A DNA stretch of 64,000 nucleotides from Dictyobacter arantiisoli (GTDB taxonomy: Bacteria > Chloroflexota > Ktedonobacteria > Ktedonobacterales > Ktedonobacteraceae), in the NCBI RefSeq assembly GCF_008326305.1, contig NZ_BIXY01000005.1, positions 62,001-126,000 of the forward strand, in the 5' to 3' direction. Within the stretch, counting starts at the first letter, position 1. Every line of letters starts with the position of its first letter. Shown piece after piece: positions 5,554 to 58,978 of this stretch. Made by a program: the position numbers and the translations under genes. The notes under the pieces are model-generated. The model was given only the letters and a program-made list of their open reading frames with translations, was not told the DNA's origin and made no database searches.

Positions 5554-6006
5554 ATGCAATTACCAGTATTCTTACTCATATTGCGTCTCCTATTCATTGT
5601 TCTGCTTTATCTCTTCTTGATGCAGGTTGTGATCGCAATCACACGTGATTTGCGCAAGACAGCCGCGCAGGCAGATGACTCCGAGGGGGGTCGTGTTGCT
5701 CAGGCTCTTGGTCATCTGATCGTCGTGGATAGTGGTCCCAGCACCATTGTACAGCCCGGTATGCGCTTCGATCTCAGTCAGCAGACAACTATAGGGCGCG
5801 GTCCCACAAATACAATCCAAATCTCGGACAATTTCATCTCATCAGAGCATACACGACTCTGGTTCCGCAATGGCGTCTGGTATGTACAGGACGCGGGAAG
5901 TGTCAATGGCAGCTTTGTCAATAATCAACCTGCCCGCGAACCCATACCTGCGCGTGCCGGTGATATCGTCCGTGTCGGCTATATTCAATTTAAACTTACG
6001 CAATAG
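5554..6006 (+). CDS. FhaB-like membrane-anchored FHA-domain protein
   Basis: 150 residues: an N-terminal membrane helix (LPVFLLILRLLFIVLLYLF, residues 3-21, continuing LMQVVIAI), a short polar linker, then an FHA domain from about residue 65 (IGRGPTNTIQI, ISSEHTRLWF, DAGSVNGSFVN). This matches actinobacterial FhaB, a small inner-membrane FHA protein encoded between FhaA and RodA. It lies 12 bases after fhaA in the same operon. The expected role is recruiting phosphothreonine-bearing proteins to the membrane site of wall synthesis; that is inference from the family. The coding 3' end forms part of a 20-bp inverted repeat. Confidence 0.9.
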   Translation: MQLPVFLLILRLLFIVLLYLFLMQVVIAITRDLRKTAAQADDSEGGRVAQALGHLIVVDSGPSTIVQPGMRFDLSQQTTIGRGPTNTIQISDNFISSEHTRLWFRNGVWYVQDAGSVNGSFVNNQPAREPIPARAGDIVRVGYIQFKLTQ

Positions 6007-6055
6007 TCACAAAACAACCACCGCTCATACGTCAATGGTTGTTTTGTGACTATTG
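6001..6055 (+). terminator. 20-bp perfect inverted repeat spanning the fhaB stop codon
   Basis: Bases 6001-6020 are perfectly complementary to 6036-6055 with a 15-base loop; the left arm includes the last codons and the TAG stop of the FHA gene. There is no T-run on the + strand after it, so it may act as a 3' end-stabilising or processing hairpin rather than a simple intrinsic terminator. Confidence 0.55.
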
Positions 6056-7584: not shown

Positions 7585-7620
7585 ACAAAGGAGCCTGCAC
7601 GTGCAGGCTCCTTTGTTATT
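7585..7620 (+). terminator. Intrinsic terminator after the SEDS gene
   Basis: A perfect 32-base palindrome (7585-7616, arms of 16 with no spacer) centred on GCACGTGC and followed by TATT. It closes the infB-to-SEDS transcription unit 28 bases after the stop. Confidence 0.85.
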
Positions 7621-39730: not shown

Positions 39731-40531
39731 ATGGCAAAACTGCAAGATATGTTTACGCAGGCACGCCGAGCACAAAGCAATGGCGGCATGGGCTTCCTGG
39801 GTAAAAGTAGAAATGAAACAAAGGCCCGTTCGGCAGCCCTGGTGATTGAGCTTGATACGATTACTGCGGGATCGGCTGAGGCCGCCTTGAAGGCCGGGGC
39901 CGATGGCATCCTCTTCAATTGGGATGGGGGTGATACTGCTCATTTCGAGACGCTGAAACAAGAGGCGGCAGCGGCAAAAGCACATAACGATAATTCTGTC
40001 CTCGGTCTCAAAATCACTGGTGGCTTCGATAATCTATCCAGCGAGACATTGAAGAATTTGAAAGAACAGGGTGTTCAATATATTATTGTGCCTTTTAATG
40101 CACCTGCTCGCCTGCTCGCAGTCGAGACAAAGGACTTAGAGAAAGTCATTGTGGTGCCCATGCGCAAGGATGAGAGCTATCCTCTCTATATCCGCAATCT
40201 GACTGCCTTTGAGAATATCGCAGCGGTCCTGCTGGATTTCAATCTAAGCGATCAACTGGGCACGATGACGATTGAAGAGGTCCTGGATTATCGCGCTGTA
40301 CGTGAAGCGGTGCGCTTCCCAGCCTTTATCTATGTCAGCCAGAAACTCAGCGAAGCCGATGCCTTTACGATTAATACGTTAGGTGTGCAGGCGGTTATTC
40401 TGAGCGCTAAAGATACCGAAGAGGCCACACGCGAGCACATTAAGTCCTTACGTGAACTCCTGGAAAAGGTCCATCAGGATGAGAATCCCAAGGATGCTCC
40501 TACTGTTACCAGTATAAACCGCGGCAAATAA
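39731..40531 (+). CDS. Conserved-looking protein, possible (beta/alpha) barrel
   Basis: 266 residues, not assigned. Alternating beta/alpha pattern with barrel-like strands and turns: SAALVIELDTITAGSAEAAL, AGADGILFNW, VLGLKITGGF, VQYIIVPFN, VIVVPMRK, IAAVLLDFNLS, FPAFIYVSQ and LGVQAVILSAKD. AGADGILF resembles the strand-end phosphate-binding segments of TIM-barrel enzymes, but no catalytic motif is clear. Cytoplasmic, no signal peptide. AAGGAG and AGGA lie upstream of ATG 39731. The stop codon touches a 39-bp terminator stem. Confidence 0.75.
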   Translation: MAKLQDMFTQARRAQSNGGMGFLGKSRNETKARSAALVIELDTITAGSAEAALKAGADGILFNWDGGDTAHFETLKQEAAAAKAHNDNSVLGLKITGGFDNLSSETLKNLKEQGVQYIIVPFNAPARLLAVETKDLEKVIVVPMRKDESYPLYIRNLTAFENIAAVLLDFNLSDQLGTMTIEEVLDYRAVREAVRFPAFIYVSQKLSEADAFTINTLGVQAVILSAKDTEEATREHIKSLRELLEKVHQDENPKDAPTVTSINRGK

Positions 40532-40614
40532 AATAGCCCATCAAGAAGACGAGTAGAAGAGGGGTATCATCTGCGTGATGCCCCTCTTCTACTCGTCTTC
40601 TTGATGGGCTATTT
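40531..40614. terminator. Exceptionally long 39-bp perfect terminator hairpin
   Basis: Bases 40531-40569 pair with 40576-40614 around the 6-base loop TCTGCG; the only non-Watson-Crick pair is a T-G at 40565/40580. It starts at the last base of the preceding stop codon and ends with TATTT, so it may terminate in both directions. Confidence 0.85.
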
Positions 40615-40637
40615 CTTCCTGAAACGGTTCCTTCTGA

Positions 40638-40678
40638 ATGGGAATCAAACACTATCTTTCAAAGTGTTTGATTCCCAT
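40638..40678. repeat. 16-bp inverted repeat duplicating the 3' end of the downstream convergent gene
   Basis: Arms 40638-40653 and 40663-40678 are exact complements. The left arm plus six following bases (40638-40659) is repeated identically at 40834-40855, where it forms the last codons and stop region of the minus-strand gene. Confidence 0.85.
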
Positions 40679-40730
40679 GGTCTTCGCCATCCTGGCGCAT
40701 GAGTTTTCGCACCAATGGTGCTCAAACAGA

Positions 40731-40789
40731 TTTTTATTATGTGATGTAGAAAAGGTTCGAAGAACCTTTTCTACATCACATAATAAAAA
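40731..40789. repeat. 28-bp perfect inverted repeat
   Basis: Arms 40731-40758 and 40762-40789 with a 3-base loop; outer ends are T5 and A5, so it resembles an intrinsic terminator readable from either strand. Confidence 0.85.
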
Positions 40790-40790
40790 G

Positions 40791-40810
40791 GGCGCAGGCG
40801 CGCCTGCGCC
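40791..40810. repeat. 20-bp perfect GC palindrome
   Basis: GGCGCAGGCGCGCCTGCGCC is its own reverse complement and follows the preceding hairpin after one base. Confidence 0.9.
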
Positions 40811-40833
40811 TGCCAGCAGGTATCCTGATGGTG

Positions 40834-40855
40834 ATGGGAATCAAACACTATCTTT
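40834..40855. repeat. 22-bp direct repeat of 40638-40659
   Basis: Identical to 40638-40659 over all 22 bases; here it overlaps the stop codon and C-terminal codons of the minus-strand barrel gene. Confidence 0.9.
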
Positions 40856-41833
40856 GGCAATCTGGGGAACGGGAATGCGCGGCGTTGTTTGCCAGTATAA
40901 CTGACGGCGCGGAATACGGCGTAACAGGCCCCGCGTCTGCTGCCATACCTGTTCAGGTCGCTCGTTATTGCGCCAATAGTAGTAGCAGGCAATATCGTCA
41001 GGCTCGGCACTCAGGAGGCTGGAGAAGGCAGACTCCAGCAACGGTTCTTCCTCCTGACTCAAATTAAAATTCTGTAGCCAGAGCTGGCTACGCTTTCCAT
41101 GTCCCTTGACGGCCTCAATGACCTGTTGTCCCCATGTGCTTACCGCCGTGACATCCTCACCCAGCAATTGCCAGAATAGATGACAACCGATGGTATCGAG
41201 AGAAGCAATGCTAGCAAGTTCTTCGATCAGGCCGACATCTGGCGGTAAGAGAGCAATGCTGGTTTTGGCCTGATGGTTGACGCGTTTGACGCAGGAGAAG
41301 AGTTCATTCAGGAAATCGATCATTGAGCGAAGTCGAAAGTGTTGCAAGTCGGTGATGTCGGGGCAGAGCGCACGGCACACGGAACAGAAACAGGTAATAT
41401 CAGGAATACGTGGCTCGTCAATTAAGATGCCATCCACGGGATAGTTGGTTAAATAGTATTCGATTTCTTTGAAGAGCCAGGAACGAAATGACTCATGATT
41501 AAAACAGGTCATATCATGTGCGCGTCCATGCCGATCTTTGACCAGGGATTGTGGATGACGAAAGGTATACCAGCTCGGCATATAGACCGGACCAGCAAAG
41601 AGGTTCCCAAAACGACCTGGACTGATATAAACTTTTAAGCCAGCGTCCCGGGCAAGCTGCAACCCACGTTCGAGATCGCGCGGCCAACGCTGCTCCTCCT
41701 GCTCATGAATAGCATAGACGATACTCGTCGCTCCCGCGGCGCGGATCTGCGCGAAATCTTGCTTGACAACATCTTGACGAAATAATGGATGAAAATATGC
41801 AACGGTTATATCCATAATTTTCACAGCAAGCAT
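40841..41833 (-). CDS. Putative TIM-barrel glycosidase-like protein
   Basis: 330 residues from ATG 41833, not firmly identified. It starts with a strand (MDITVAYFHPLFRQDVVKQD) and continues GATSIVYAIHEQEEQR, LARDAGLKVYISPGRFGNLF, a strand-end acidic motif YPVDGILIDEPRI and a Cys cluster CFCSVCRALCP, then IALLPPDVGLIEEL and later strands. D and E in GILIDEP sit where GH-like barrels carry catalytic or metal acids. AGGGTG lies before ATG 41833; the open frame runs upstream to 41968 without conserved character. It could be a glycoside hydrolase or an unrelated sugar-binding barrel. Confidence 0.7.
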   Translation of the reverse strand: MLAVKIMDITVAYFHPLFRQDVVKQDFAQIRAAGATSIVYAIHEQEEQRWPRDLERGLQLARDAGLKVYISPGRFGNLFAGPVYMPSWYTFRHPQSLVKDRHGRAHDMTCFNHESFRSWLFKEIEYYLTNYPVDGILIDEPRIPDITCFCSVCRALCPDITDLQHFRLRSMIDFLNELFSCVKRVNHQAKTSIALLPPDVGLIEELASIASLDTIGCHLFWQLLGEDVTAVSTWGQQVIEAVKGHGKRSQLWLQNFNLSQEEEPLLESAFSSLLSAEPDDIACYYYWRNNERPEQVWQQTRGLLRRIPRRQLYWQTTPRIPVPQIAKDSV

Positions 41834-42226
41834 ACCTACACCCTCAGGCGTGAGAGGATTTTTGCCGTCTCCTTTCTGTGCATACGTATAGCTACAGCTA
41901 CCTGCACAATGAGGCATACGTTGAGATCCAGGTGGATAACTCTTTCGTCTGTATACATATGTGGGCACCGCTCAATAACCATGCGCCGCGCTTTCCAATG
42001 AAGAAGCAAAGTTCTATTTACGCATGCATGCACTACAGTATATCATTTTGTTTTAAAATGGCCTAAAAGCAGGTATTTTTAGGCTACGGAACAATGAGCC
42101 ATCCTATTTCGCTATGTACGTCTACGAAATATCCCATGAATAGAGACGTCTGAGACAGGCACTTTCATAAAAAAAGATTACCTCCAGCCTTAAAGCTGTT
42201 AGGGACTCTCGAAAACTAAATTATCC

Positions 42227-42279: not shown

Positions 42280-42364
42280 AGACGAGGTAGTCAGATTGTA
42301 GATATACTCAGAACGTGATGCCGGACGGATGATCATTCCTCAATCAATGACGGCGCAAAGGGTA

Positions 42365-42430
42365 CCATGCTCCTGTTCTGGTATCAAGGGTCGCTTCGCT
42401 TCCTCCCTTGACACCAGAACAGGAGCATGG
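42365..42430. repeat. 26-bp inverted repeat with 14-base loop
   Basis: Arms 42365-42390 and 42405-42430 match with a single A-C mismatch. TTTG follows on the + strand. Confidence 0.85.
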
Positions 42431-42735
42431 TTTGAAAAACACGCGCCATTGATGAAGCCAAAAAACAGCCCTTTTTGCTGCTGGGTGAAGGAACTGCCAA
42501 CATAGCTCCATCAGCTCCATTATCAATGCCGGTAGATTCGCGGGTCTGGTGCAATTTTGGTGGAGAATGAGCCTATCTAATGATTGCTTTCCTTTTTCTG
42601 AGCACGTAAAGAAGAGCAAAACTGTTGCTACTGATGTGCTTTCGCCAAAATTGGGCCAGATCCAACAAGGCGTGTAGATGCATATGGTTATTCAGTGTTT
42701 AGAGGTATGTGTATCTACACGCAACACTTAGCTCT

Positions 42736-48909: not shown

Positions 48910-48950
48910 AAGGACAAATGCAAACTTTATAGTTTGCATTTGTCCTTTTT
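48910..48950 (+). terminator. Terminator after the small zinc-ribbon gene
   Basis: Seventeen-base arms 48910-48926 and 48931-48947 pair perfectly around TTAT, followed by a T-run to 48950. Confidence 0.9.
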
Positions 48951-58787: not shown

Positions 58788-58920
58788 AATCCTATCCTTT
58801 CGACTGTATCGAAAACCCGCACAACAACCACGCAAGCAGCGATGTCTGCCATTATGACCGAAGAGTATTGTATCATTCTATAGCAAGCCTGGCTATAGCA
58901 CCCCACAGATGAAACGCCGA

Positions 58921-58969
58921 TCCACCCGTAGGAGCCACCCTTCACGGGAGGGTGGCTCCTACGGGTGGA
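58921..58969. terminator. Large hairpin downstream of the EPSP synthase-like gene
   Basis: TCCACCCGTAGGAGCCACCC (58921-58940) pairs with 58950-58969; further inner pairs extend it. It is 10 bases beyond the stop of the minus-strand gene at 58979. Confidence 0.7.
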
Positions 58970-58978
58970 TATTCAGGC

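Follow-up and report, generated by a model that had tools for sequence, protein, structure and literature searches.

The window analyzed in this study, i.e., the whole stretch of 64,000 nucleotides of DNA from the soil bacterium Dictyobacter arantiisoli, contains a cluster of repeats at positions 40531–40855, which lies between two convergent genes designated here as gene A and gene B. The initial annotation described this cluster as four perfect inverted repeats plus a 22-bp direct repeat, the second copy of which holds the last codons and the stop codon of the minus-strand gene B. We verified all of the repeat coordinates, and the features are listed in Table 1. The direct repeat (40638–40659/40834–40855) is exact and ends gene B as described. 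Perfection was confirmed for the 16-bp and 28-bp stems and the 20-bp palindrome; the 39-bp stem, which has one T-G mismatch, is the only deviation.

Table 1. Features of the repeat cluster and its neighboring genes (positions in the window)
Feature	Position	Strand	Remarks
Gene A, convergent neighbor	39731..40531	+	Only a sub-threshold PF01729 match
39-bp stem (40531-40569/40576-40614)	40531..40614		97% complementary, one T-G mismatch, 34 perfect pairs counted from the base; unique; directly behind the gene A stop codon; outside the mobile element
Solo terminal inverted repeat (TIR), ATGGGAATCAAACACTATC	40638..40656		Sequence shared with the right TIR and with the outer end of the IS5-type element found at 10 contig ends
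Left 3-bp target duplication, TTT	40657..40659		Boundary analysis
MITE, TIR to TIR, 193 bp	40660..40852	+	Own-genome recurrence and boundary analysis
Left TIR, CAAAGTGTTTGATTCCCAT	40660..40678	+	Pairs with the solo TIR to give the perfect 16-bp stem (40638-40653/40663-40678)
Conserved core with short hairpin, TTTTCGCACCAATGGTGCTCAAA	40704..40726	+	239 own-genome matches, 0 for the reversed control pattern
28-bp perfect hairpin (40731-40758/40762-40789), loop GAA at 40759-40761	40731..40789		Covarying arms; loop found flipped in some copies
GC palindrome (40791-40810, 20 bp, perfect), then CTTTTTATTA on the minus strand	40785..40813	-	Intrinsic-terminator-like for transcription from gene B
Right TIR	40834..40852	-	Gives the last codons and stop of gene B (KDSV and stop)
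Right 3-bp target duplication, TTT	40853..40855		Boundary analysis
Gene B, convergent neighbor	40841..41968	-	3' end replaced by TIR

Perfect stems of at least 12 bp occur eight times in the 64-kb window, compared with none in each of three first-order Markov (dinucleotide) randomizations. When the own genome was searched with positions 40500–40900, the cluster separated into the unique 39-bp stem and a recurrent region at ~40635–40856, the 20-bp palindrome showing up as a minus-strand self-match. The cluster is composed of two unrelated things: the terminator-like 39-bp stem and the region 40638–40855 with the MITE, a non-autonomous mini-transposon, and the solo TIR.

The recurrent region was found many times in the source genome (7.2 Mb in 256 contigs), the longer matches being 79–97% identical over a unit of ~215 bp and some copies being arranged head to tail. 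The core motif TTTTCGCACCNNNGGTGCTCAAA, searched with two mismatches at most, is counted in Table 1 for the own genome; the same count in four congeners was 7, 2, 80, and 20, and in other genera it was a handful at most. The motif is present in D. kobayashii and D. aurantiacus, and an exact search of viral contigs for it returned no match. Recurrence elsewhere, which had been proposed as a check for a mobile element, was thus found in quantity. Side-by-side comparison of 40 loci defined a unit with 19-bp TIRs, CAAAGTGTTTGATTCCCAT ... ATGGGAATCAAACACTTTG and variants thereof, which has a modal length of 203 bp. Apart from the end of gene B, the only open reading frame of at least 80 residues over the window copy is an 88-residue frame running out of it. 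The copy statistics given here are based on 122 distinct core-bearing copies of ~239, about half of the MITE family, and a collection made by core motif misses very degenerate copies. The flanking 3 bp are identical in 36 of the 51 copies for which both ends were found (mean 6.4 and maximum 14 in 1000 shuffles), and these triplets are mostly TTA, TAA, TCA, and TGA (TNA type); the TTT duplication of the window copy is not of the commonest type. The two ends of one copy agree at 85% of the inner 15 nt of the TIR.

These boundaries account for the smaller repeats of the cluster. The 22-bp direct repeat arises because each of its copies consists of TTT joined to a 19-bp terminal repeat; the 16-bp stem is formed because two terminal repeats, the solo TIR and the left TIR, abut. 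One earlier suggestion was an inserted element with the 22-bp repeat at its flanks; the insertion was confirmed, and the 22 bp proved to be a TIR and a 3-bp duplication instead of a target duplication. We infer that the solo TIR is all that remains of a second, now vanished element.

A search of Rfam gave no match above the gathering score, with only sub-threshold, mostly miRNA-like chance matches to the perfect stems. At four loci (L048, L065, L067, and L081), MITE-type terminal repeats surround other interiors; therefore, more non-autonomous derivatives exist than the MITE described here. A second dispersed repeat of ~90–110 bp with the ends GCTCGACTTTGTACA / TGTACAAAGTCGAGC adjoins many MITE copies (L004, L012, L014, L016, L018, L020, L039, L053, L067, and L070) and is probably another mini-element.

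Genes A and B are convergent neighbors in all four congeners, where they are 90–170 bp apart with one small terminator-like hairpin between them. In this species-level comparison, the MITE unit was absent between the two genes in every congener, in line with the expectation that relatives should lack an inserted segment. The C-terminus of gene B, read by eye, is ...IAGTESS and ...LAPKEGS in two congeners and ...QIA-KDSV in the window, where KDSV and the stop codon are encoded by the terminal repeat and TTT. We thus demonstrated the insertion of the MITE, its target duplication, and the empty site.

MITE copies occupy 19 of 178 convergent gaps and 34 of 758 other gaps (Fisher p = 0.003), as counted with rough gene calls that place 12 clusters inside short, probably spurious open reading frames. 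In codirectional gaps, 18 copies have the same orientation as the genes and 12 the opposite, which is no clear bias. Loss of the insertions that hit promoters and genes would be expected to produce both the intergenic placement and the enrichment in convergent gaps.

The terminal repeats of the MITE are shared with an IS5-type element. The TIR AGATAGTGTTTGATTCCCATCA opens six left and four right IS ends, all of which are located at contig ends and have one identical sequence per side (G000 C5, C13, C38, C48, C91, and C148 for the six; C7, C24, C40, and C165 for the four). The element is present at least six times, and its ends break ten contigs. The left end codes for the last 35 codons of a transposase (...RLSRDHEGLPESSEAFIRIASCHRLLTKLA), a fragment that is too short for classification and gave no match in Pfam and NCBIfam. 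Its homologues in congeners are encoded by complete two-frame elements of ~1.1 kb (L114 and L098) and match PF13340, PF01609, and the NCBIfam IS5 family model NF033580; these intact relatives carry related TIRs. The D. arantiisoli assembly lacks the body of the IS5-type element, an absence that a collapsed repeat would be expected to produce, and the TIRs and transposase of the element are therefore known there as separate pieces. A TNA target duplication is typical of IS1031-like elements. From these sequence comparisons, the mobilizing enzyme is most likely an IS5-family transposase, an assignment with good support. An IS630/Tc1-mariner partner, which duplicates TA, was rejected on the basis of the 3-bp TNN flanks, and the contig with the best PF13358 candidate (C187) has none of the MITE's TIRs. 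At ~6 of the 10 contig ends with the IS5-type element, a MITE end adjoins it. Abutting ends are common, and IS and MITE elements therefore seem to favor each other's edges as insertion sites.

The 39-bp stem has no relatives elsewhere in the own genome or in a local 1.25-Mb sample, and the corresponding site in congeners carries a smaller terminator-like hairpin. We consider 40531–40614 to be probably the intrinsic terminator of gene A and unrelated to the MITE. Other long hairpins in the window (42364–42431, 6001–6055, 48910–48947, and 7585–7616) are likewise unique in the 1.25-Mb sample and are probably large terminators; long stems behind genes seem to be favored in the D. arantiisoli genome. 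At 58920–58970, the window also contains a perfect 22-bp stem, an arm of which recurs at four loci (L127, L144, L147, and L178) and represents a further repeat family.

The 28-bp hairpin of the MITE exhibited an unusual pattern of variation. Arms were compared in the 102 of 122 copies that have a recognizable hairpin: their sequences are widely different, and 83 of the 102 stems are free of mismatches. An alignment of 91 copies, built outward from the loop, gave an arm divergence of 22.9% between copies versus 0.8% within a copy. Two-sided changes numbered 23,763 versus 1,283 one-sided changes when all pairs of copies, which are not independent of each other, were counted. Only 9 of 2,366 base pairs are G-T, and 19 arm positions are unpaired versus ~259 expected under independent arm mutation, with the distance to the nearest other copy taken as age. 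A few of the 20 copies left out show mosaic or broken stems; adding them would raise the mismatch count somewhat, and the deficit would remain. The terminal repeats, which are likewise inverted, differ by 15% within a copy, and stems of old copies are still nearly perfect while their TIRs decay. Stems in D. aurantiacus, D. kobayashii, and a third congener (G001) are likewise perfect as a rule while varying in sequence; these genomes are assembled in 2–7 contigs each, and short-read assembly is therefore not the cause.

The 3-nt loop is present in both orientations (GAA in 21 copies and TTC in 21; TAT in 12 and ATA in 5). Orientation of GAA/TTC changed 15 times on a tree of the elements, compared with a mean of 14.3 after shuffling, and is thus random with respect to the tree, which is based on ~125 positions, includes some mosaic copies, and is rough because copies recombine. 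Loops are flipped even among copies that are identical over the 125 aligned positions outside the hairpin. Two copies (L020 and L048) are mosaics that indicate recombination between subfamilies. In three others (L007, L156, and L167), a deletion between GCAG microhomologies has removed the long hairpin, which is expected if the hairpin folds in replicating DNA. As single-stranded DNA, the MITE folds with −72.2 kcal/mol versus a shuffle mean of −25.2 (z = −13.6). Arm identity across divergent copies and free loop orientation are direct observations.

We propose the following account. The MITE landed within the final codons of gene B and duplicated TTT (segment 40657–40855), next to an earlier element that would have been lost except for its 19-bp terminal repeat. 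The gene-less MITE would have been moved in trans by an IS5-family transposase supplied by an element with the same terminal repeats. The 28-bp stem would be kept perfect in one copy after another by DNA-level template switching at replication, in which either one arm serves as template for the other or the strands are switched by the fork across the hairpin; arm differences would be repaired and the loop inverted. Cruciform resolution could contribute additional loop flipping. In yeast, template switching between inverted-repeat arms homogenizes the arms and inverts the spacers (PMC8604942), and the process has been suggested as a source of RNA hairpins in rRNA and microRNA and as a means of their maintenance (PMC8794818). 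The account as a whole, including the unrelated terminator of gene A, appears to us highly probable. Its MITE part is close to settled, and template switching as the process behind the perfect stem and the loop flips is a reading that we moderately favor. Template-switch duplication had also been offered as the origin of the cluster; we reject it in that role and retain template switching as the best explanation of the perfection of the 28-bp stem.

The stem could instead be kept perfect by selection on its RNA as a terminator, an RNase III site, or an mRNA-stabilizing hairpin, in a MITE otherwise as proposed. Compensatory change is a classical sign of selection for structure, and the enrichment in convergent gaps points in the same direction, as does the GC palindrome, which is followed by T5 and scored as terminator-like on the minus strand in a terminator scan. 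However, the enrichment would also result from insertion and survival away from promoters and genes, and the codirectional copies show no clear orientation bias. Furthermore, each of ~240 dispersed copies would need selection able to repair single mismatches, more G-T intermediates would be expected than the few found, old copies retain nearly perfect stems despite TIR decay, and loop flips, which are neutral to an RNA stem, are not predicted. Covariation, random loop flips, and decaying TIRs together point to mutation rather than selection. Template switching fits the behavior of the stem better, and we regard RNA selection as unlikely.

A DNA-level alternative that we likewise hold to be improbable attributes the loop flips and arm identity to cruciform extrusion and resolution or to inter-copy recombination, and not to polymerase switching. 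Cruciform resolution inverts a loop exactly, and the mosaic copies attest exchange between subfamilies, but resolution would leave mismatches unrepaired, inter-copy exchange alone would leave the arms of one copy unmatched, and 28-bp stems are short for homologous exchange. Stacked bidirectional terminators without any mobile element, as the initial annotation had considered, agree with the position between convergent genes and the terminator-like scans; they are refuted as the sole explanation by the MITE units with the same ends and target duplications at many unrelated sites and by the single small hairpin at the locus in congeners, which makes this explanation very improbable. The terminator reading survives for the 39-bp stem, and it applies partly to the GC palindrome, on the minus strand. 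Least credible of all is a REP/REPIN or IS200/IS605-type element moved by a Y1 transposase, which would also be short, palindromic, intergenic, and of high copy number, but Y1 elements do not make the true TIRs and 3-bp target duplications found here, and the MITE's ends occur on an IS5-type DDE element.

Returning to template switching, we tentatively extend it as follows: it may randomize the loop faster than single substitutions arise, so that the covariation would be purely mutational without RNA selection, and it could be tied to the replication or transposition of the element. This extension is possible, though we give it less weight than template switching itself.

The MITE as such belongs to a known class of elements. 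It resembles IS5-family insertion sequences (two-ORF IS427-like or IS1031-like, with a 3-bp target) and bacterial IS-derived MITEs in sharing TIRs with IS5-type ends, in its 3-bp, mostly TNA duplication, and in being gene-less, intergenic, abundant, and nested head to tail. It differs from them in its conserved long, perfect inner hairpin, and its placement is at the level of the IS5 family only. Elements of the REP/BIME type and other palindromic intergenic repeats share the intergenic location, palindromes, and high copy number, whereas the Dictyobacter MITE is longer, is bounded by TIRs and target duplications, and has a partner of the DDE type. The family was found only in Dictyobacter, and a search of the open-licence literature found no description of it in Dictyobacter or Ktedonobacter.

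The new part is the behavior of the hairpin. As in the template-switch homogenization reported previously (PMC8604942, PMC8794818), arms are homogenized by two-sided changes and loops are inverted; the Dictyobacter case differs in that a single element shows this at hundreds of scattered sites and that loop orientation has reached saturation. Compensatory change combined with loop inversion has been regarded as the strongest possible support for template switching, yet was extremely rare, with six cases (PMC8794818), whereas the Dictyobacter MITE shows both in quantity.

Many Dictyobacter genes have ends shaped by the MITE, which in the window provides gene B with a stop codon. A functional RNA structure is ordinarily proved by showing that the two arms of its stem covary. 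If the covariation seen here is indeed mutational, the MITE hairpins would be a warning for covariation-based RNA discovery, and the family would provide a natural, replicated system in which template switching in bacteria can be measured. With a stem that remains paired while its sequence drifts and its loop flips, the MITE is a naturally occurring test of the maintenance of perfect hairpins in DNA.
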